From Gamsiella multidivaricata (Eukaryota > Mortierellomycota > Mortierellomycetes > Mortierellales > Mortierellaceae): DNA of 64,000 bases. Below the pieces are notes generated by a model, which was not told where the DNA came from, made no database searches, and worked only from the letters and a program-made list of their open reading frames with translations. Made by a program: the position numbers and the translations under genes. Of the stretch, positions 52,745 through 64,000 are shown piece by piece (the stretch's first letter is position 1; every line of letters begins with the position of its first letter). The DNA lies in assembly GCF_025024155.1 (NCBI RefSeq), contig NW_026251719.1, positions 62,001-126,000 on the forward strand. Direction: 5' to 3'.

Positions 52745-55700
52745 TCAATGTCTTCCATACCCTGCTGCAAGAATGCCACCTGCACCTTTCCATGGCATCT
52801 GAGGACCAGTGACAACTAAAACACATAAAGGTCACGTCGTTAGATACCTGTGCCCGTTATTATATCAAAAAGGATAGTGCTTATTGGCCTTACCCCAGTC
52901 AGGCACTAGTAGGCCAGTACGCTTGGGAAAGAGTCGTGCTGCAGTTTCCAGTCCTTGAACATCTAGTCCTGCGATTACCATCGCCAAGTTGGACGAACCC
53001 CATGGTCGGATCATGAGAAGCCCGGTTCCTGGTTCACGGAACTCGTTCGAGGAGGCAATCTCGGACTTTGGTAGGATGGATACAACGCCACTTTGGCTAT
53101 CAATGGTCACTGGAAATAAAATACATGTCTGTCAGTGCTGTGGCAAGGCGCCAGTTGCAGGTAAAACTCCTCATGTGCGTATGTTATCACCTTCTTGCTC
53201 CGATTGAATGAGGATGTGGTTCGTAATAGTATTTTGGTGGCTATCGCCAATCAACACTAGATTGGGTCTCTCTTCTTTGCTATGCTCGATATCTCCGATA
53301 GTAGCGAGGTATTCCTCGTCCGTATAGATTTCGACGTCGCCCCTTCCGTAAAGAAAAATATCGTGCGCGACAAGTTTCGCGATCCGATCGGCTGTGCTGA
53401 GCAGCTCTGGGGAGACCAAATGGGTGGTCCCTATTACGATGACAACCCGCTTTTCAAGCACCTGGATTGCTGGTCCATATGTTTCAGGGTGTCGCTCAGT
53501 CGCGGTCCACTCGTTAGAATCATCAAACTATATGCAGATGATCAGCGAGCGACACAGTAATTATAGCTATGGGATTATTGAAAGATACAGAGCATCCACC
53601 ACGACCGTTTCCGAAGAGTTGACATACCTGCCAACGATCTCCTTTTTTCGAAGTTCGTTCACGGATAAATGTGCTTGATGATAATGGCGCATCTTTTTGG
53701 AGATTAAATGTCATCCCGTCGATGACGATCGTCGAGATAGAGCCACGCCGTGCCTCCAGACTAGGCGAGTCAGCGAACGAGAATCGGCGAATATTTGTCG
53801 TTTGCAAGACCCAGATGGTTGAAGCCCCCTTAGATCGCTCAGTCTGTTCGTCGCCCAAGATGCTGACCTTGATCGTTCCTTTTCTACATAGACGTGAAAA
53901 AAGTCGTTCAAAAATGCGAGAATTGTGGACACCGGCGTACCCTCGATAACTTTATGTCCATGACCTGCTTACCTGAATGGGATCTGTAATTGTTCAACTT
54001 GAATGCCGCCTTTTGACCCCATGCCCGCAGGGTTGATAACAGTAATCTTGAATGACTTTGAAAATGGAAGATGGACTACAGCTTTTTTGTCATACTGATC
54101 CTCTACAGCACCTTCAGATTTCGACACTACATCATCGTGCAAGTGCTGTTTCAAGAAACCTTGCATGGTTCCGTCGTGCAAAATGTTTGTAAACCAATGC
54201 CCACCTCCCGAGATTTCAGATAAACTGGGCGTAAAGATTACATCGAGTCAGCACAAAGATTTGTCAGGACGATCGATGGCATCGTAGTGAACGCTATGCA
54301 ATGTACCTGATTGAAGAGAAATTGTGAGAGTTTTCTTGCCCCAGACGAACCATCTTGCGAGAGTTGAACGGAGGGACATTGTTGTCTGCACTACCTGTTC
54401 TTGCCAAGGTCGGGATGCCCACCTAGGAAGAGAGCAAGAAAACATATTAAACAGCTGTTCAGCCCAAGGTCACTCTCCTTGAGCATATATACGTACAGCA
54501 TTGGACATATGAACATCGTTGTCAAACTCAATAATGGACGACTCTAGCAGCTGCATTATTCGAAAATATAACATAGTGTTCAGTTAGAGTGCACTAGACA
54601 TTTGCTCCGCATGTGACTAGATATCAGGAGGACTCAAATTTACTCCACGAAGATAAGAATCCGTATGCGAGTTGCTTAGCCAACCAAGAAACGGTACATA
54701 TTGCTTGATATTCACGTATCCAGCAGCGGGTGTGGCTACGCGGTAGGAAAAAAAAAGAAAAGAAAAAAAGACCAATTATGAAAGATGTTTAGACAGTTCC
54801 GTATCACTCTTAGTAGAATAAAAGATTGAGAGTGCACCATCGAACGAACCTGCGATCGCCTTGTCGGGAAAATGTGTCACGAGAAACCATGCTCCTTGGC
54901 CCCCATTGCTGTGACCGGCCATGAATAGTCGTTCAGGATCGGGCTTAATGCCAGGAATGTTCTTAACTGCGTCGGGGACCCCTGGTAACTTGTCTGCAAG
55001 ACTATGGATAGCATTCATGGCATTCTTAACGCTCGCTCCATGCCAGTCGTACCCCCTACAAGCACATGTACAAACGTGGGGTTTAGTCCGTGCCCGACCC
55101 ACAGATATGGCGCCTCAGCTTGGTCAAGTAATACCGTACCAAGGCGAGCGTCCTGTTGGTAACACGATCTATGTCGAGAGTGTTGAAATGTACGGTAAGA
55201 GTTCGATGCCTTTCAATGAAGGTCGATGGATACTTTTCATATGGAGTATATATAGCGCTTACCCAAGTCCTTTCTCGTTGAGTATACTCTGCCAACCAGA
55301 ACGGACTCTGTGCAACTTCGACACCTAAGAAAATATTATGCTATCAGTCGCCGTTGTAGATATACTAAGAATAAGAGAGTAGATGCACGACCGAGACCTA
55401 CCCGCTCCATGGAGGGCTACAATGACGGGTGCAGAGTCCAACGGCTGCGACGACGGTTTGCTCGGTGGAATGGCAGCAGCATAATGAACAGTGCCGTCAA
55501 AATCTAAAAAGGTGTACTTGTACACCTTACCCCATTCCTTTTGTTCGATGCGAATTAAATCGGTTTCGAGTGCCCCCGTCGATTTTTCCATGTTGTTGCC
55601 AGATCTCATTATAGCCAACTCGAACCTTAGAGAAAATTCCAATCCCTGAATACGTTGGCCCTCCTGCAAGCTAAGGCGAATAGTAACCGGACGATGGGTT

Positions 55701-56937
55701 CCAGGATACAGACTAATGGATCTCAACTGCTCTTTCAATTCTGCTGAGAATTGGTTGGAACCATGCTCGACTTTGACCGACCTAACAAGAACCCTCTCTG
55801 GACCCACATTCCGGAGCGCCACACTGATATACTCGCCAGCGAGAGCATTATCCACAGCATCCATGACAACATATCCTCCATAGCCCTCCTTGGCTACCTG
55901 AACCATTATTCCGTGATCATGCTGTGTTGTCCGCGGTGCCACCTTGAGTTCGCATCGGAATTTGGAAGGCGGTGGCAACACAGCGCCACCAAATATTCGC
56001 ACCTCATGAATGACTCTTACAGAGATGGTATGTCGAGTGTTAGGAGCCAGACGGAGGGTATGTCGCGTGAGACCATATCCGTACCAGTCGCCTGAGAGCC
56101 GTTCGCTGTCGACATAAAAGTCACCGACGTTTTCGCACTGGATGGTGACAGAACATTTACCATCTTCATTTGGTGGAAAGCATGAGGCAATGGAGGGCAC
56201 GATAAAAGATGAGCGAGCCCAGGCTTGGAACTGGTTGAATGCCCAGCCCATAAATTGCTGATTGAATTTCCAACTGGCGATTCAAGAAAACCATAATAAG
56301 TCGTCAGAAGTCGAAAGCGTTGGCATTGAACGGACAGAACGATCGAGCATGTAACGTACTCGATCTCAGGATATAGAACATTGATCCATCCTTCTGAGTC
56401 TATTTCCGTAGTATGCCACCGCACGATTCCATCCTTCGCCAACTCTGATGGGTATTTTGCGTCCTTGTCATATGGGAGGTTCCTGAAACCGCCTACAACA
56501 TTGCATAGTAAAAGGGTTGAAAGGAAAGTCAGTAGCCTTATACGCGAAATTGCAAGTGCACTTAGTAAAGCCGCGAATTTGGACCACAACATACCGAATG
56601 CTTCCAAAGGATCTGCGCCGAAATCCTGCTCGCGCATCCCTGTCGGGAAGGGTCCCAGGACCTAATTTATCAAATACGACGATTTGTGTTATGTTGAAGT
56701 TACAAGAGAAGGGTTACATTTCTTTGCAAATTGGACAGCCCTTCTTGCCTGCCAGCTCCTGTCCATTGATATCGAAAGGTTATCTTCCTTTCTGGTGACA
56801 AAAGTTGAATCGGTACTCATAACAGTCTGTCCATGATCCTGTATAACAAGGTCCTCGAACAAAGAAGGCCGGCACTCGATGGTGGCTCCGATGCTAGCGA
56901 TGAGCATGGTCAGCGTAATTGCAGAATGGGACCTCAT
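52745..56937 (-). CDS. Secreted alpha/beta hydrolase (esterase/PHB-depolymerase-like), 998 aa, 15 exons
   Basis: Exons: 56937-56704, 56661-56595, 56492-56360, 56273-55402, 55324-55263, 55168-55140, 55055-54850, 54735-54644, 54550-54497, 54422-54307, 54224-53973, 53883-53628, 53527-53191, 53109-52894, 52815-52745. Every phase matches and the sum is 2997 nt. A signal peptide (MRSHSAITLTMLIASIGATI) is followed by VLGPFPTGMREQDFGADPLE, then a beta-rich N-terminal region (CENVGDFYVDSERLSGDWYG). The hydrolase domain has APVIVALHGAG, IVLPTGRSPWGYDWHGAS, the nucleophile elbow GHSNGGQGAW and GGGHWF with the likely catalytic His; the Asp is probably in GSADNNVPP. The C-terminus ends WKGAGGILAAGYGRH. 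Family members are fungal secreted serine hydrolases; substrate unknown. The smallest exons are 29 and 54 nt. Confidence 0.9.
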
Positions 56938-57493: not shown

Positions 57494-58087
57494 ATGAATC
57501 AGGTAATTTTAAAATCAAATGCACCTGTCATCTTGGCACTGCGATCAAGATGGAGATACTAACATTTTGATAAATATCAATTCTTCCCCGTTGCCGAACT
57601 AGAACACGCACGTGCCTGTGTGCATGAACATAAATGGCACGCTAGTCCATGGCACAAAAACGACGACGACTTCCACGATGACTGAGGCAATGAGTCAAGG
57701 TAACACACGGCATTGAATGATTTCATGCGCTACTACAGCGGTAAAATATTAACATCTCTTTGACCGAATTTTAGGATTCGGGGCCCCTCTCATCATTGTT
57801 GTCGAACAAAGAAAGGATGAAGTAGTCAAGGCTGTAATAGGTGGCGAGACTGTAATCCAGCATTCTGCGGTAAGAGCTCGGCCCCATTATGTTTAACCTG
57901 GCTCTCCCTCGGCGAACTGCACACTCACATTCACATTCATTGGCCTACCATATTTTCTTGTACAATTTCATCCTCGCATTAAAAATAGTCGCGATGGAGA
58001 ACTGAATATGGTGACGAGATCCGCGACACTTACGGGACTGAAGTGAGATGGTGTAGCGTATCCAATGGGCAATGGCAGCTGCTCTAG
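57494..58087 (+). CDS. OB-fold-like family copy A, divergent, 99 aa
   Basis: Four exons: 57494-57502, 57603-57699, 57775-57869, 57989-58087, with phases 0,1,0. A TACTAAC branch-point-like site precedes exon 2. It reads MNQ, then NTHVPVCMNINGTLVHGTK, then GFGAPLIIVVEQRKDEVVK and GGETVIQHSA, and ends SRWRTEYGDEIRDTYG ... NGQWQLL. Alone it would be unconvincing, but it shares with copy B the same number of exons, the same intron phases, a last exon of exactly 99 nt, and an aligned pattern in exon 3 (LIIVVEQRKDE ... GG-x-x-VI against VIVFANQQDDL ... GD-x-IVI) and at the C-terminus (GQWQLL against GQWHLT). It lacks the DW and LP residues of the other copies, so it has diverged or lost function. 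Confidence 0.45.
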
Positions 58088-58872
58088 TCTCATTTATCCT
58101 GTACACACACACTCGCGCAAACAAGATGAGGATACACAACCTCAGCCGATGTCTTTAGAACATTAATCGCTTTATAAAATAAATTATGATACTTTGTATA
58201 TAGTCACTTGTTCCGGATTATTTAGCTTATAAACGAATCGATGCCAAGCATAGCAATCGACCAATTCCAGGTAGCTCCCCACCCTTCTAGAACTACATGA
58301 GGATTTTTTTAACGCTTCATATCAAGCTTATAACATAAAAAGATATAATATCTATCCTCCAAATAATATCTCCTACATGTTTATGAGACCCACTGATGAG
58401 CTTATTGGGTGTAGAGCGCATCATCCTTCCACGCGGCTTGAAAGAGCACCATGTTATCTATAAAAAACACATCCGAGTACAATAGACCACCATGCCTTCC
58501 ACTTCTATCGTTTCTCATCATCTCCATCATTTCTTCTAAAAAAAATCAGACAGCGATAGCTCCATCAACACCTCTGTATATCGCTTTCAATTTTTACGAA
58601 ATCATAAAGGCAGTACATTTTACAACATAATATCATAAGTTGGAAGACTTGACGCATTTCTGCTTTTAAATGCACTCTCAGACCTTCACACCTTTGAAAT
58701 GACTGAAGAGTAGAGACTTTTACGGCACCAATATCTGCAATGAGGTCACTCATATCACCTACAGAGTCATTCAATGCCTCTAAAGCACACGAGGTAATCC
58801 CAATGGTCTTAATGAGCTACTATGTCCTCTGGATAGTATAGTTATTCACATAAACTTCACTTTATTTTTCAG
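58088..58872. other. AT-rich spacer in the OB-family array
   Basis: No coding unit recognised. If the decayed copy at 58873 once had exons 1 and 2 they should lie here, but I could not find them. Confidence 0.4.
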
Positions 58873-59080
58873 ACTATGGGCTAAGATTCAATGTATCGAA
58901 AAAAAAAAATTTGGCGCGTGAAAATCGAAGATTTGCCAGAACTGACAAACGGGATATGATAGTCATCCAGAGCGCGTCGATAAGGGTTCAGAAGACGCTG
59001 CTTGCTTCTTTAACGTTAACCTGTTTGACTGGCAGGTTATTTTCGTCATGCTTCGCTTTAGACATCGTGTATCCACGTAA
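58873..59080 (+). pseudogene. OB-fold-like family, decayed copy
   Basis: After a TTTTTCAG acceptor (58871-58872) the sequence reads D/YGLRFNVS with the same phase as exon 3 of copies B and C (D-WAKIFKI, D-WCTWFEI). It then passes an A11 run where the frame is lost, gives RVKIEDLPELTNG in the next frame and, after a second shift, DMIVIQSASIRVQ. Joined by eye this follows the family pattern DLP-x-V-x-x-GD-x-IVI. Two compensating shifts and the lack of exons 1, 2 and 4 argue for a relic. The first frame stays open to TAG at about 59080. Confidence 0.45.
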
Positions 59081-59937
59081 GCCATAGCTATACGCTTCAT
59101 TCATGGTTCAACTACAAGATCCCCGTGGCACCTTATACTGGTGATGAATAGTACGGCAATACTTAATCGACGGAACTATGTAGTGCATAGCTGGTCTCGG
59201 AAGGACAGCTCATGACCAGCAACGGCAGCATTTTCTGAGCTACAGTAACCAGGAATAAAACTTCCATATTGATGGTCCATTATACGCGTAAATGTTCATG
59301 CCCCACAAGGCGGGTTCACACATTTCAAGCCTGTTTATTCCCCATACATTGCTTCGTCAAAAGGAGTTATGGATAAACAATCTGGTACTCCACCGTTACT
59401 GGTTGAAATGAACCACAGCGGCTGGGCTCCCGCATTGATAAATAAGAATACTTCAGAATAGCGTACTCTTCCTTCACGAAAACGGTACGAGAATAGACAT
59501 GGTCGGTCCTTTAAGATGAGGGTGGTGCGTGAGTAAGGCATGAGGGCCGGCATTACACTTCCCACTTTAAAGAATTATGCCCTCAAGTTCATAAACTCTG
59601 TCACCAGTTTCCTCTTTGCCACTCGCTCAAACGTACAAGTCGTTTCGTCATACTTTTACAACGCATGACCATAGTTCCAAGCCTGCAATGTTCTCATTCA
59701 TGCAGAGTCGTGCTGCGTAATGGATGCGAGGATAAGGGCAGCGTGACCCATCTGCTTTTCCAAAACAAAACAAAACAGCAACTTGAAAGCAGCTACTGAC
59801 AATGGTAGCTTCGCCCTCGTGCACAATGTAGAAAAATTGAGGAAACGGCAAATTGCTGTTCTCCACCTACCTTGTTCCTCCACCTACACATTCTTAACGT
59901 CCAACATTCATCACATATTCACTTCAATTAGAACAAG
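59081..59937. other. Spacer in the OB-family array
   Basis: A 76-codon minus frame at 59335-59565 (LILKDRPCLFSYRFREGRVR) has protein-like composition but no partner exons. Nothing else is supported; CT-rich sequence before 59938 probably belongs to the promoter of copy B. Confidence 0.4.
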
Positions 59938-60582
59938 ATGGCATTTACAGACCAGCAAAGGGTAAGTATGACTGGGAGCGTACACTTCTAGGCGCGAAAA
60001 GCAATGCCAGTGAAGGACCATTGAGACTTCCTTATCAATGGTACAACAGTTCATGGCGTTATCATCCTTGAACCAAGACATAGACATCTTCGGGATCCAC
60101 GTTCATGGTACGGTCACTGAGATCGAAAGATACGATTTCCATTGCCAACACGGAACTCAGGGTAAGTTAGGCAGCAGCACTCAGCCAATATGCTAGGCTT
60201 TTATCGCTTGTTATTGACAGAAAATACAAATCATGCCCCTAGATTGGGCGAAAATCTTCAAGATATGCGATCCTCTTAATCCAGGAGTGAAGCAACCAGT
60301 CATAGTGTTTGCGAACCAGCAGGATGACCTACCGGTGGTGAATCCAGGGGACTATATCGTGATTTGGAACTGTGGAGTAGGTGCTCGCTGTGATTCGCAC
60401 TCATGTCTAGTGACTCGATGGTGCTCATAGAGTGTGCTTTCACTAACACTGTTGTTCCCTTCATTGTTTGAAAACTGACGAAGTATTTCTACAAGAATAA
60501 ATGGGGTTACTCAATTCGTGCGTGGAAACATCTAGGCAGCATTTGGGAAACTATACCCAGAGGGCAGTGGCATTTAACCTAG
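59938..60582 (+). CDS. OB-fold-like small protein, family copy B, 122 aa
   Basis: Four exons: 59938-59961, 60050-60161, 60243-60376, 60484-60582; phases 0,1,0. It reads MAFTDQQR, FMALSSLNQDIDIFGIHVHG, TVTEIERYDFHCQHGTQ, DWAKIFKICDP, PVIVFANQQDDLPVVNPGDY, IVIWNCGYFYKNKWGYSIRA and ends IPRGQWHLT. The order hydrophobic strand-HG-V, G-T-x-DW, I-x-D, V-x-V/I-F, D-LP-x-V-x-PGD-x-I resembles the N-terminal OB fold of POT1/TEBP telomere proteins (Telo_bind), which binds single-stranded DNA; this is pattern recognition only. The exon 3 acceptor CCTAG is chosen because the earlier ACAG acceptor breaks the frame. Small size suggests a single-domain binding protein. Confidence 0.7.
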
Positions 60583-61112
60583 AGTCCGATAGCAGAACGA
60601 TCGCAAGAGATCAAGGAAGTTTGACCCTTGGCGATGCAGAAAATAAAATGTGTTTAAAATAAAAATCCTATTGACAGGCGTTTTTGTGTAACTATTGCTG
60701 TGCTCCTCCCAACTCTGGAAAAAAGAAAAATGGACATGGCCCTGACAACCATGATGCTTCGTCTTTCCCCTTTTCCCGCACCTCATGTGGTTTTCGCTGC
60801 TTGGCGTCTTTTGTTTTGCCTATGTGCTGTTCGCCAAGTGAGCTTGCAAGATGCTTCGCCATGTATGATGGCTTTTCATGCCTGCACTGCAATTGTTCAC
60901 GCATGCTTGTGCGACAGAATAATATGGAACTTTTGGCTCTCGTTGCACGCGAAACGTATTTTGGAAATAGGTAGCCAATGAAGACAGCCTCGCCGCACCT
61001 TTGCCTCTCATCGCAAAGCAGATAAAAAGACGACAATTCTTCTTTACTATCTTTTTAAACCACCCATCCCTTCCAAAACCAAATCCATAACACAATAACC
61101 CACTATATTAAC
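60583..61112. other. Spacer in the OB-family array
   Basis: Frames on both strands at 60684-61095 overlap each other and lack splice partners; no gene supported. It should contain the copy B 3' end and the copy C promoter. Confidence 0.5.
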
Positions 61113-62067
61113 ATGGTAGCTACGGCTCAATCAGATGTAATATTAACTGTGAGCAGCAGCTTATAAAATACGAGTATTTGGTCAGCAAAGGACGGAGATA
61201 CTAACAAATCTTAGTAAATGTGCTCTCCCAGTTCATTGCAGTGAGCGATTTGATCAAAAGCCAATTTGCTATCAATGTTCAGGGCATAGTTGTCAGAATT
61301 CATCGCGAGAAATTCAAGTGCAAAAATGGATCGGCCGGTATAGTACAATGAATTTCAAGCAACGCGCCAAGACGCTCTGTTTTTCACAGTTTTTAACCTT
61401 GACATTTGTCACTCTCAAGACTGGTGTACATGGTTCGAAATCCGCGATCTAATAACAGAAACGACAAGAGAAGCGGCTATTTATCAGAAAGAATACTCTG
61501 AGTTGCCAGATTTGAAGCCTGGCGATATTATCGAACTCAACCAGTGCAGTGTAAGTACTCGACCATTCGGAGTGTTTCTCTTGCTGTATAACCTCAAGCT
61601 CGCCTTTACTAATCCTGCTCTCTTAAACATACAATAAGTACTACTGGAACGAAAGATTTGGCTTTCAAGTCCGCATTTCCCCATCTTATGAAGGTGCGTC
61701 TTTCAGAGTAAACCCTCAACCGCAGTCTAATGGACTCTCACAGTCTCAGAGCGGCTACAGTAATGGCGGTGACGTAGCGCCAGCTGAACCCGTGCCTTCT
61801 TCGCCAACTCCGATGGGGCAGCAGCAGTCGACACAGTCGACGAAGTCTCCAGCAACTGAGCCCGAGAATCCGAATTCAGAACAAGAACAAGAGCAAGATA
61901 CTCATAGCGAAAACAGCGATGACAGCATCGTACCATCTGAACCCGCACGATCGTCACCAAACCGAACGGAGCAGCGGCAGCCAGGCCAGTCTCCAGTAAC
62001 TGAAGCCGCGAGTCCTACACCCTTCGATGTAGATGAGACACTTGGGCTGGGGTCTCTTGCAATTTAA
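61113..62067 (+). CDS. OB-fold-like protein with disordered tail, family copy C, about 229 aa
   Basis: Four exons: 61113-61136, 61232-61337, 61420-61550, 61639-62067; phases 0,1,0, as in copy B, and exon 1 has the same 24-nt length. It reads MVATAQSD, FIAVSDLIKSQFAINVQGIV, VRIHREKFKCKNGSA, DWCTWFEIRDLITET, YSELPDLKPGDIIELNQCS, YYWNERFGFQVRI. An alternative, more canonical CACAG acceptor at 61388-61389 would add ten residues in frame before DW. The last exon continues for about 125 residues rich in Ser, Pro, Gln and Glu (for example SPATEPENPNSEQEQEQDT), ending LGLGSLAI. The OB-like part fits a POT1-type nucleic-acid-binding fold; the tail could be a partner-binding disordered region. Copy B lacks this tail. 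Confidence 0.72.
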
Positions 62068-62730
62068 CCCGCATGTCCACTCCAATATCGCCGCAAATTT
62101 GCACAGTAGTAGCAACAGTACTCATAAGTAAGATCAAACTAAAGGTTCCTTTTCAAATCTATGTTCTTACATCCTCTTCGTATTGCATGTCGAGGAAAAA
62201 AAAATATTAAATAAAAAAGCTATAAAATAAAAAATTATATCAAATAGGCATTAGGTGTTGTATTTGACAGGGATTGAGAGGCGTCACACATCCAAATGGA
62301 CCTTCATCTTGAGGGAACCGACCGAAAAGATATAGCGAGAGAAACGAAGTGAGTACAGTAGGACTTGTCATTGCAGGCCTTGTTCCCTGATAGGTCGCTG
62401 CCTTCGTTTGACAAAGAAATCTCGGCGTGCTGTACCCATGCAAATCCTTATCGACAATAATTTTACGCGCTAGAGCCGCGCAAATCTTTCCTCTTTTTGC
62501 CCCTCGTTTATCGTCATTTCATTCTTGGATGATTTTACGTGCTGGACCATTAAATAAGGGGTTTTTATCTCGATGAATGACTGATGCCAACCTCCATCAT
62601 CCTGAACGCTTTGCACAGAAATCGATGTGTTGAGAGGAGCAGACTTTGATTAGCTTAACAAGGGGGGTATTAGGCATAAGATAACCCTCAGTTATCGCAA
62701 TTCTTAGTTTAAAGAAGCCGAAAATCGATA
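62068..62730. other. Intergenic region
   Basis: AT-rich 3' sequence of copy C, then a segment with two GCGC-containing imperfect repeats (TTTTACGCGCT near 62461 and TTTTACGTGCT near 62532). No gene seen. Confidence 0.5.
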
Positions 62731-64000
62731 ATGGCCCATACGTTGGATCATCCTGGCTTCCACACGCCCTGTTTAACTTTCGACCAAGATGCCTCCCAAA
62801 CGGTCGCCGACGACCAGGTTTCTCACTCCACTAATGCTACAGAAAAGTACCACGAGGTTCAATACAACTTCCTCGCCGAAAATGCACCATTCGAGTCTGC
62901 GATCCGATGCGCCGCCATGTTTTACAAACAATTCCACTTCGCAGGACCTTGGGACGGCAGAGACGCGCTTCGAAAGACCCTAAGGTCCTTGGAGCAATCA
63001 GGAAACAAAGATTTTGCGGGATTTGATAAGCAAATTGAGGTATGCGGACTATTGTCTTTACGCTTGTCGTTTACTATTCTTCAGTTTAACGATTTTTATA
63101 TGCTCTGTTAAATAGTCCGATTCATTCAAGGAATGGGAGCGCGACTACTTCGACATGGTCAGGACTTCTAAAAAATCAATCATGGATGGCTTTCTGACGT
63201 GGCAAAAGCAGCAGGCTCAACGAGCGAGTATTTCCGAAGGAAAGAAGGTGCTATTGACTCGTATATCCTTGGTCAGCAACCTGGCTTCGGAGGCTAATAA
63301 GGCAGCTGAGAAAGAAATGCTGGACTCATCAGACCAGGTAAGATGTACCAGACCTGCTCTTCCTTAATGTGCTACATTTGTATTAAATTTGACACCAATA
63401 ATTAGTTAGCCTCCTAATACCATTGTCTTATATCTTTAGGAGATTTCAACAGCTTCTGGCAGCAACTCATTACCGAGTGAATATTCTGTGCGACAACAAC
63501 AGACTGAGGATCCCACTGTGCCAGAACCAGTCTCTGTAGCACCATCCACTTTGTCGTCTTTATCCTCATCGTCGTCATCGCTCACCGTCTCTCCCCCAGA
63601 GTCCCCATTCATCGACGAGAAAAGCAAAGTAATGAATGTCGGAGGTTTAAAATGAATTGGCTGCGCCTTTGATTAGCAACCTCTGACTTTACCTTTGAAC
63701 TAATGCTCTTGCTTAGCATCCCGATGTAGAAGTTGATGTGGTATCGATAGCGGAGGTCGGAGCGATCTTTAAAATCAAGCTCTTCGACTTTACTGGCTGC
63801 CTTGGCGACATGAACGTGGGGAGGGACTTTAATAAGTACTTCACGCGATCTGCAGAGCTGAAGTACAACAAGGACTCGTTTCCCGACTTTCTGTGAGCGG
63901 ATGTGACAATATCGCATGTATCGTTTTTGAACACCCAACCACCATACTAACTGCTCTTACTCATGTGTGTTGTTAGGGCAATTAACGGTATACTTTTCTT
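62731..64000 (+). CDS. Hypothetical multi-exon protein, probably continuing past the right edge
   Basis: Exons 62731-63039, 63116-63337, 63440-63628 and 63717 onward join in phase 0 throughout. It starts MAHTLDHPGFHTPCLTFDQD; residues 50-100 contain KYHEVQYNFLAENAPFES and FYKQFHFAGPWDGRDALRK; exon 2 is helical and charged (FKEWERDYFDMVRTSKKSIM); exon 3 is a Ser/Pro linker; exon 4 reads DVEVDVVSIAEVGAIFKIKL ... FTRSAELKYNKDSFPDF. The frame can stop at TGA 63894-63896 (299 aa), but CT followed by a GTGAGC donor at 63893, a TTGTTAG acceptor near 63976 and a continuing frame (LAING) make a further exon beyond the window more likely. No family recognised; no OB motif seen, so it is not an obvious member of the neighbouring array. 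Confidence 0.6.

Follow-up and report, generated by a model that had tools for sequence, protein, structure and literature searches.

Two adjoining genes of Gamsiella multidivaricata probably encode stand-alone OB domains related to POT1 OB1

Do small tandem genes in a fungal genome encode free-standing OB domains of the POT1 type, and how many such genes are there? The question is raised by a 64-kb window of DNA (the whole stretch analysed here) from the soil fungus Gamsiella multidivaricata (Mortierellaceae), in which the initial annotation had described three intact copies of an OB-like family, here A, B and C, and one relic. Copies B and C were upheld, while A was not established and the relic was not found. 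Judged from the sequence, B, at 59938-60582, and C, at 61113-62067, are real genes that are homologous to each other; each has four exons, and the intron phases 0,1,0 are common to both. Their features are as follows.

Gene B exon 1: 59938-59961, plus strand, 24 nt, 8 aa, recovered with the C-only profile
Gene B exon 2: 60050-60161, plus strand, from the beta-1 region (FGIHVHGTV) to HGTQ/D
Gene B intron 2: 60162-60242, plus strand, phase 1, within the Asp codon of GTQDW
Gene B exon 3: 60243-60376, plus strand, DW...D...LP...PGDYIVI
Gene B exon 4: 60484-60582, plus strand, 99 nt including the stop, C-terminal GQWHLT
Gene C exon 1: 61113-61136, plus strand, 24 nt
Gene C exon 2: 61232-61337, plus strand, FAINVQGIV to GSA/D
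Gene C intron 2: 61338-61419, plus strand, phase 1, within the Asp codon of GSADW
Gene C exon 3: 61420-61550, plus strand, DW...LPDLKPGDIIEL
Gene C exon 4: 61639-62067, plus strand, final strands, then a 124-residue tail

In a splice-aware DNA search, all three introns of B were recovered with C alone and all three of C with B alone, and in neither direction did any of 100 shuffles score as well. This cross-recovery supports the proposed four-exon structure for B and C; the claim that A is intact is weakly supported. The first exons of B and C have the same length, as had been stated, but their sequences are not identical, and the 99-nt length given for exon 4 of A and B is correct when the stop is counted. 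The two products share 32% over 102 aa (E ~2e-19, BLASTP in a three-protein set). The product of B has 122 aa, and a homologue search with the B+C alignment returned no protein equal to this model. The 229-aa product of C corresponds to the GenBank hypothetical protein BC939DRAFT_441631 (100% identity over 229 aa); its tail is acidic and of low complexity, with S/P/Q/E/T/N making up 64% of the residues. In codon usage, each of A, B and C scored between the 5th and 25th percentiles of 134 control ORF pieces, which counts against the reading of B and C given below.

The products of B and C are, by their sequences, single POT1/CDC13-type OB domains with PF02765 as the nearest family. PF02765 (Pfam, model.23) was the best family for both, at 25.2 bits (E=1.5e-5) for C and 17.1 bits (E=0.0049) for B, each under the curated cut-off of 29 bits, but the protein database carries PF02765.24 as a precomputed domain of BC939DRAFT_441631. 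With a POT1-only spliced profile, 0 of 100 shuffles reached the score of B or of C. The protein motifs quoted in the initial annotation were present in both products, and alignment showed that the core residues G-x-V, G[TS]-x-D[WY], D and LP...G are retained at an identity of 17-26% to POT1 OB1. The T/S-x-D-W motif was likewise retained, together with aromatics at the F88 and Y115 positions, which we take to be DNA contacts in S. pombe Pot1. In addition, intron 2 of both genes lies in the Asp codon of GTxDW, and an intron was inferred at the same site in S. pombe pot1, so that this position appears to be common to B, C and the fission-yeast gene. The likeness to the POT1 N-terminal OB fold thus stood for B and C (Pfam, POT1-only spliced profile and intron site) and was not established for A.

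Other comparisons gave less. No RPA, SSB, STN1 or TEN1 family was listed for B or C at Pfam E<=10, a search in which the HMMER filters drop weak matches, and NCBIfam gave nothing useful. C alone had no match among PDB sequences at E<=10; when the two-row B+C profile was run against the PDB, two hexosaminidase chains ranked above Pot1, all at E>=0.11. Profile-profile comparison with three fission-yeast Pot1s was weak (probability 0.9%, E 0.058) and aligned the expected residues. Two alignments that included full-length Pot1 proteins placed the final strands wrongly and were set aside.

We consider it highly probable that B and C are tandem paralogues, each a stand-alone OB domain homologous to POT1 OB1 and derived from POT1-type OB1 sequence. 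For their origin and mechanism we infer the following course. A POT1-type OB1 sequence would have lost, or been separated from, OB2 and OB3; local duplication and fast divergence would then have given B and C, of which C has an acidic low-complexity tail besides. The single OB barrel would bind ssDNA, telomeric or other nuclear, through the retained T/S-x-D-W turn and aromatics, and B and C would act alone or beside a separate POT1 OB2/OB3 protein, like the worm single-OB POT proteins.

Structure prediction, also proposed with the initial annotation, agreed in part. The model was of low confidence (mean pLDDT 45), its strand order fits an OB fold, and its fold-search matches were mostly OB proteins, RPA and SSB among them. 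None of the 344 Foldseek matches reached E<=0.001, and no S. pombe Pot1 chain was among the best 50 matches listed in either fold search. A model of C alone (mean pLDDT 41.6) was set aside. From the low-confidence model, B and C would adopt an OB fold. Both domains are acidic (net charge -2.0 for B and -2.4 for C), whereas the POT1 OB1 domains compared, five of five, are basic (+2.2 to +5.8). Relative to these five domains, B and C also miss seven residues in the region of the TQG loop: two ahead of it and five behind. Because of the acidity and the shortened loop, telomeric DNA binding by B and C is plausible but unproven.

Of the possible mechanisms, ssDNA binding by a single barrel, by analogy with the worm POT proteins, is the most likely, although we advance it tentatively, at slightly less than even chances. 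Protein binding ranks second: B and C could be POT1-OB1-derived protein-protein adaptors that no longer bind DNA. The acidic domains and short loop region would fit this role, and a precedent exists in Ustilago, where Pot1 OB-N is reported not to bind DNA appreciably and to be implicated in the binding of Rad51 (PMC9119445). The motif and aromatics that both B and C retain argue against it, and we regard the adaptor role as possible but distinctly less probable.

Whether all four claimed copies belong to the family depends on A and the relic. The model of A is as follows.

Putative copy A: 57494-58087, plus strand, exons of the initial annotation at 57494-57502, 57603-57699, 57775-57869 and 57989-58087, 99 aa

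Several features would place A with B. Its exon 4 is equal in length and ends in GQWxL, and its third intron has the same phase; the B profile picked the annotated position and phase of this intron, and only three of 100 shuffles scored as well as A with this profile. BLASTP in the three-protein set gave 26% over 82 aa between A and B (E=4e-6). The splice sites of A had, however, been chosen to fit. On the other side, the GTxDW motif is missing from A and Pfam gave it no POT1 match, 21 of 100 shuffles scored as well with the B+C profile and 67 of 100 with the POT1 profile, and only exons 3-4 aligned with B in a blind test. The supposed relic region (58150-59900) gave no signal with the B or B+C profiles, being equalled by 50 and 99 of 100 shuffles, respectively; the B+C profile threshold was passed in the window at six open frames only, all of them exons of B or C. 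A family of three intact copies and a relic is therefore rather unlikely on these results, and A is possibly a decayed third paralogue.

A further reading is that POT1 is split in this fungus, an OB2/OB3 gene without an OB1 of its own being supplied with OB1 in trans by B and/or C. PF16686 has one locus in the genome, on contig C178, which is not the contig of B and C; a piece of this OB2 used as genome query found itself only, and an OB3-like stretch lies downstream. PF02765 had no match in the 16 kb around this OB2/OB3 (that strand, three frames). This absence carries little weight, because an unspliced Pfam scan of this kind misses B and C as well. Moreover, OB2 is separated from the apparent start of a divergent neighbour by about 1.1 kb, room enough for OB1, and the scores of this stretch with the POT1 (52.0), POT1+B+C (53.2) and B+C (45.7) profiles were equalled by only 2, 3 and 5 of 100 shuffles, so that a diverged OB1 may exist upstream of OB2. 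Three intron-spanning GTxDW patterns, which match B and C, gave 11, 13 and 19 rows in the genome against 9, 11 and 18 in backward controls. The profile test took in the 24 rows of the first two (ATTGG) patterns, with B included and one site on contig C47 present twice, plus a place on contig C1, and no ATTGG row other than B scored above 61.5. In the third (GACTGG) pattern, C was known by position and the other 18 of the 19 rows stood outside the profile test, which weakens the split reading. We judge a split POT1 unlikely. Its fuller form, with OB2 and OB3 retained at C178 and OB1 turned into a separate, tandemly duplicated, fast-diverging and possibly interchangeable pair that completes the telomere cap in trans, is a little more doubtful again. 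Lastly, that the POT1 likeness reflects convergence or chance, B and C being an unrelated orphan OB-like or other beta family, is very improbable: the sub-threshold PF02765 scores, weak profile-profile result and poor model would allow it, but two diverged paralogues share one best family, no shuffle reached either score, and the Asp-codon intron fits that inferred in S. pombe pot1.

Our reading of B and C as POT1-OB1-related paralogues can be set beside known systems. With POT1 OB1 (PF02765; S. pombe Pot1 1qzg/7cuh, human POT1 1xjv) they have in common the G-x-V, GT-x-DW, D, LP...G core, the OB strand order of the low-confidence model and the intron inferred in S. pombe. Canonical POT1, however, has a basic OB1 with a full TQG loop, fused to OB2/OB3, whereas B and C are acidic, short at the loop, tandem and one-domain. 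The initial annotation had held that telomere OB proteins are normally single-copy, but POT1-type paralogues are known in worm, Oxytricha, mouse, Arabidopsis and Tetrahymena. Stand-alone single-OB POT1 paralogues are already known from C. elegans, which has POT-1/2/3 and MRT-1; worm POTs bind telomeric ssDNA. They resemble B and C in having one POT1-type OB per protein and several paralogues per genome; B and C differ in being both OB1-type in a genome that also has a POT1 OB2/OB3 gene. The ciliate Oxytricha, with millions of telomeres, has six TeBP-alpha; these Telo_bind (PF02765) proteins are multiplied and extremely diverged in one genome, like B and C, but are described as made of multiple OB folds (PMC3558436). 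The basidiomycete/metazoan Pot1 OB-N is, like B and C, an additional OB domain of the POT1 system; it is fused to POT1 (PMC9119445), whereas B and C are separate genes with OB1-type motifs. Among the papers listed, our literature search showed no report of stand-alone tandem POT1-type OB genes in fungi, and little on telomere proteins of this early-diverging group. If our reading is true, the locus is an independent case of a telomere cap dismantled and multiplied, in an early-diverging fungus with a POT1 OB2/OB3 gene, and two adjoining OB1-type genes pose a clear question: which OB1 caps the chromosome ends?

Further copies and relatives were also sought. With C residues 1-120, only C itself was found at E<=1 among 13 candidate proteins, and of the 13 candidates for the B+C alignment not one reached E<=10. 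S. pombe Pot1 OB1 gave four matches among 64 candidates, three from Schizosaccharomyces and one S. pombe-like, and none was a Mortierellaceae POT1. None of 36 pattern matches in viral contigs was confirmed. The absence of relatives is weak, since these protein searches need shared exact words; that nothing but C itself turned up would fit the earlier notion of a lineage-specific family, but the searches reach close relatives only. Used as genome queries, B, C and A found nothing beyond themselves except, for A, the place on C1 (E=0.1), which lay outside the top five rows of every profile when tested. S. pombe Pot1 found nothing as genome query, and neither did PF02765, a null that is uninformative because B and C were also missed. 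(TTAGGG)4 occurred at no place in the genome and (TTAGGG)2 at two, with 1 and 13 in the backward controls. No obvious short tandem array was present at 40 contig ends (starts of C1-C20, ends of C1-C18 and both ends of C178, the start of C178 as its first 90 bases by eye), and because of this the telomeres are probably missing from the assembly. With the B+C profile, the flanking DNA (80 kb in all, 40 kb to either side) gave nothing above threshold. When the POT1-only profile was run on 80 tiles (64 of the window and 16 of C178), one place being reported per tile, the best two places were both B (73.6 and 71.4) and the next scored 62.5; C shares a tile with B and is hence unlisted.

The four-exon structure with intron phases 0,1,0, which the initial annotation had assigned to the neighbouring small genes B and C, was upheld by a splice-aware profile aligner, written to test the models independently of the choices made there. 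The exons of the two genes, in window positions, are as follows.

Gene B: 59938-59961, 60050-60161, 60243-60376, 60484-60582 (with stop)
Gene C: 61113-61136, 61232-61337, 61420-61550, 61639-62067

Each of the six introns has GT-AG borders; the phases in both genes are 0,1,0, and lengths are 81-107 nt. A profile made from C only placed the three introns of B exactly on B DNA (score 137.1, against 54.0 for the best of 100 shuffles), and a B-only profile recovered the three introns of C (120.7, against 49.5 for the best of 100 shuffles). The spliced C model matches BC939DRAFT_441631, a hypothetical protein recorded in GenBank for Gamsiella multidivaricata, with full identity over 229 amino acids. 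B may be unannotated, because the homologue search did not return its protein. C ends in an acidic low-complexity tail at window 61740-62064 (124 residues, 64% S/P/Q/E/T/N), and B has no such tail.

We regard B and C as a real, if modest, finding: a tandem pair of diverged, stand-alone genes of the POT1-OB1 type, whose role is putative. In line with the resemblance noted in the initial annotation, PF02765, the POT1/CDC13-type OB1 family, was the best Pfam family for both (C, E=1.5e-5; B, E=0.0049), although both scores fell below the 29-bit cut-off. The protein database lists a POT1 domain for C. The top three of six PDB matches to B were S. pombe Pot1 (E 0.22-0.65), C alone gave no PDB match at E<=10, and with a two-row B+C profile two hexosaminidase chains outranked Pot1, all insignificantly. 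A POT1-only profile, consisting of OB1 rows of four fission yeasts and human with columns taken from an alignment including B and C, scored 72.3 on B DNA and 70.6 on C DNA, values reached by 0 of 100 shuffles in each case. This profile placed intron 2 correctly in both genes; the outer introns were not all correct. In a profile-profile comparison the expected residues were aligned, with an E of 0.058 that is insignificant by itself. The core positions of POT1 OB1 are retained in B and C despite 17-26% identity.

A search with S. pombe Pot1 OB1 found a database protein, P0002, that equals residues 24-339 of S. pombe Pot1 save one residue, with 24 additional residues between HGTK and DW. Because the solved S. 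pombe Pot1 protein lacks these residues and their possible codons (Gly-Met start, Leu-Asp end) fit G/GT...AG/AY, we infer from the protein, rather than DNA, that the insert would be a retained 72-nt phase-1 intron in the Asp codon. Intron 2 of B (HGTQ/DW) and of C (GSA/DW) lies at the same site. By a rough estimate that ignores splice-site preferences, the chance that one of three introns hits a given site and phase in ~120 codons is ~1%.

The array is smaller than had been stated. The relic, claimed as a fourth copy, was found neither by a window-wide profile search nor by the spliced-profile test. The neighbouring candidate A, described as intact, has an open frame with the right phases, but it has no POT1 match in Pfam and no GTxDW motif, and shuffles scored equally well in 3 of 100 cases with the B profile, 21 with the B+C profile and 67 with the POT1 profile. 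Since its exons 3-4 are similar to those of B and the intron between them is located as expected, A is possibly a decayed paralogue of B and C; independent support for its membership is little.

In the source genome (180 contigs, 37.5 Mb), in which the window is C13:62001-126000, a search with PF16686 (POT1 OB2) had a single hit on another contig, at C178:95521-95736 (minus strand), followed by OB3-like sequence; a piece of this OB2 domain found itself alone. The sole recognised POT1 OB2/OB3 gene occupies C178:~94400-96150, minus strand. Its neighbour is divergently transcribed and matches Mcp5_PH at the far end, and no OB1 was recognised between the two. On that strand, Pfam did not find PF02765 in 16 kb around OB2, in a type of scan that misses B and C too. 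Upstream of OB2, the POT1, POT1+B+C and B+C profiles scored 52.0, 53.2 and 45.7 (shuffles as high: 2, 3 and 5 of 100), which suggests that a diverged OB1 may lie within the ~1.1 kb between the apparent start of the neighbour and OB2. If this POT1 is without OB1, B and C would be candidate sources of that domain. Such a split POT1 is the most interesting reading and is testable; a comparable idea, that POT-1 and POT-2 of C. elegans might form a heterodimer resembling canonical POT1, was raised by authors working on the worm (PMC3564990).

In B and C the T/S-x-D-W turn is intact, and aromatic residues still stand where S. pombe Pot1 has F88 and Y115; in that protein these residues contact DNA. 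Near the TQG loop both are seven residues short (two before it, five after), and both are acidic, with net charges of -2.0 (B) and -2.4 (C), as compared with the basic values of +2.2 to +5.8 in the five POT1 OB1 rows. We tentatively favour ssDNA binding by the single OB over protein binding, which seems less likely. Single-OB binding of ssDNA was measured for C. elegans POT-2 and POT-3 (PMC9881156). These are described as OB2-type, unlike B and C; among the worm proteins POT-1 is the one of OB1 type, and it binds the overhang of the C-strand.

There are precedents for the multiplication of POT1-type proteins. C. elegans has four POT1-type OB proteins. Oxytricha has six TeBP-alpha, and paralogues exist also in mouse, Arabidopsis and Tetrahymena (PMC3558436). 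Pot1 homologues of Ascomycota, Chytridiomycota and Zoopagomycota are described with three OBs (PMC9119445). The duplex telomere proteins of fungi have been reviewed in an article that refers to Mucoromycota but, in the portion available to us, not to their Pot1 (PMC7952879). In our literature searches we came upon no paper describing paired stand-alone OB1 genes from a fungus.

Telomeres are probably missing from the assembly, because 40 contig ends (C1-C20 starts, C1-C18 ends, both of C178) had no obvious short tandem array and (TTAGGG)2 was less frequent in the genome than its backward control. Downstream of C, open frames at window 62713-63896 (plus strand) resemble a multi-exon gene; in three frames Pfam gave none above cut-off and one KIF9 match under threshold. 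At window 54776-56281 (minus strand), open frames contain an AGHSNGGQGAW stretch, reminiscent of alpha/beta hydrolases, and two frames gave sub-threshold Pfam matches to MOV-10_Ig-like, Chlorophyllase and PGAP1.
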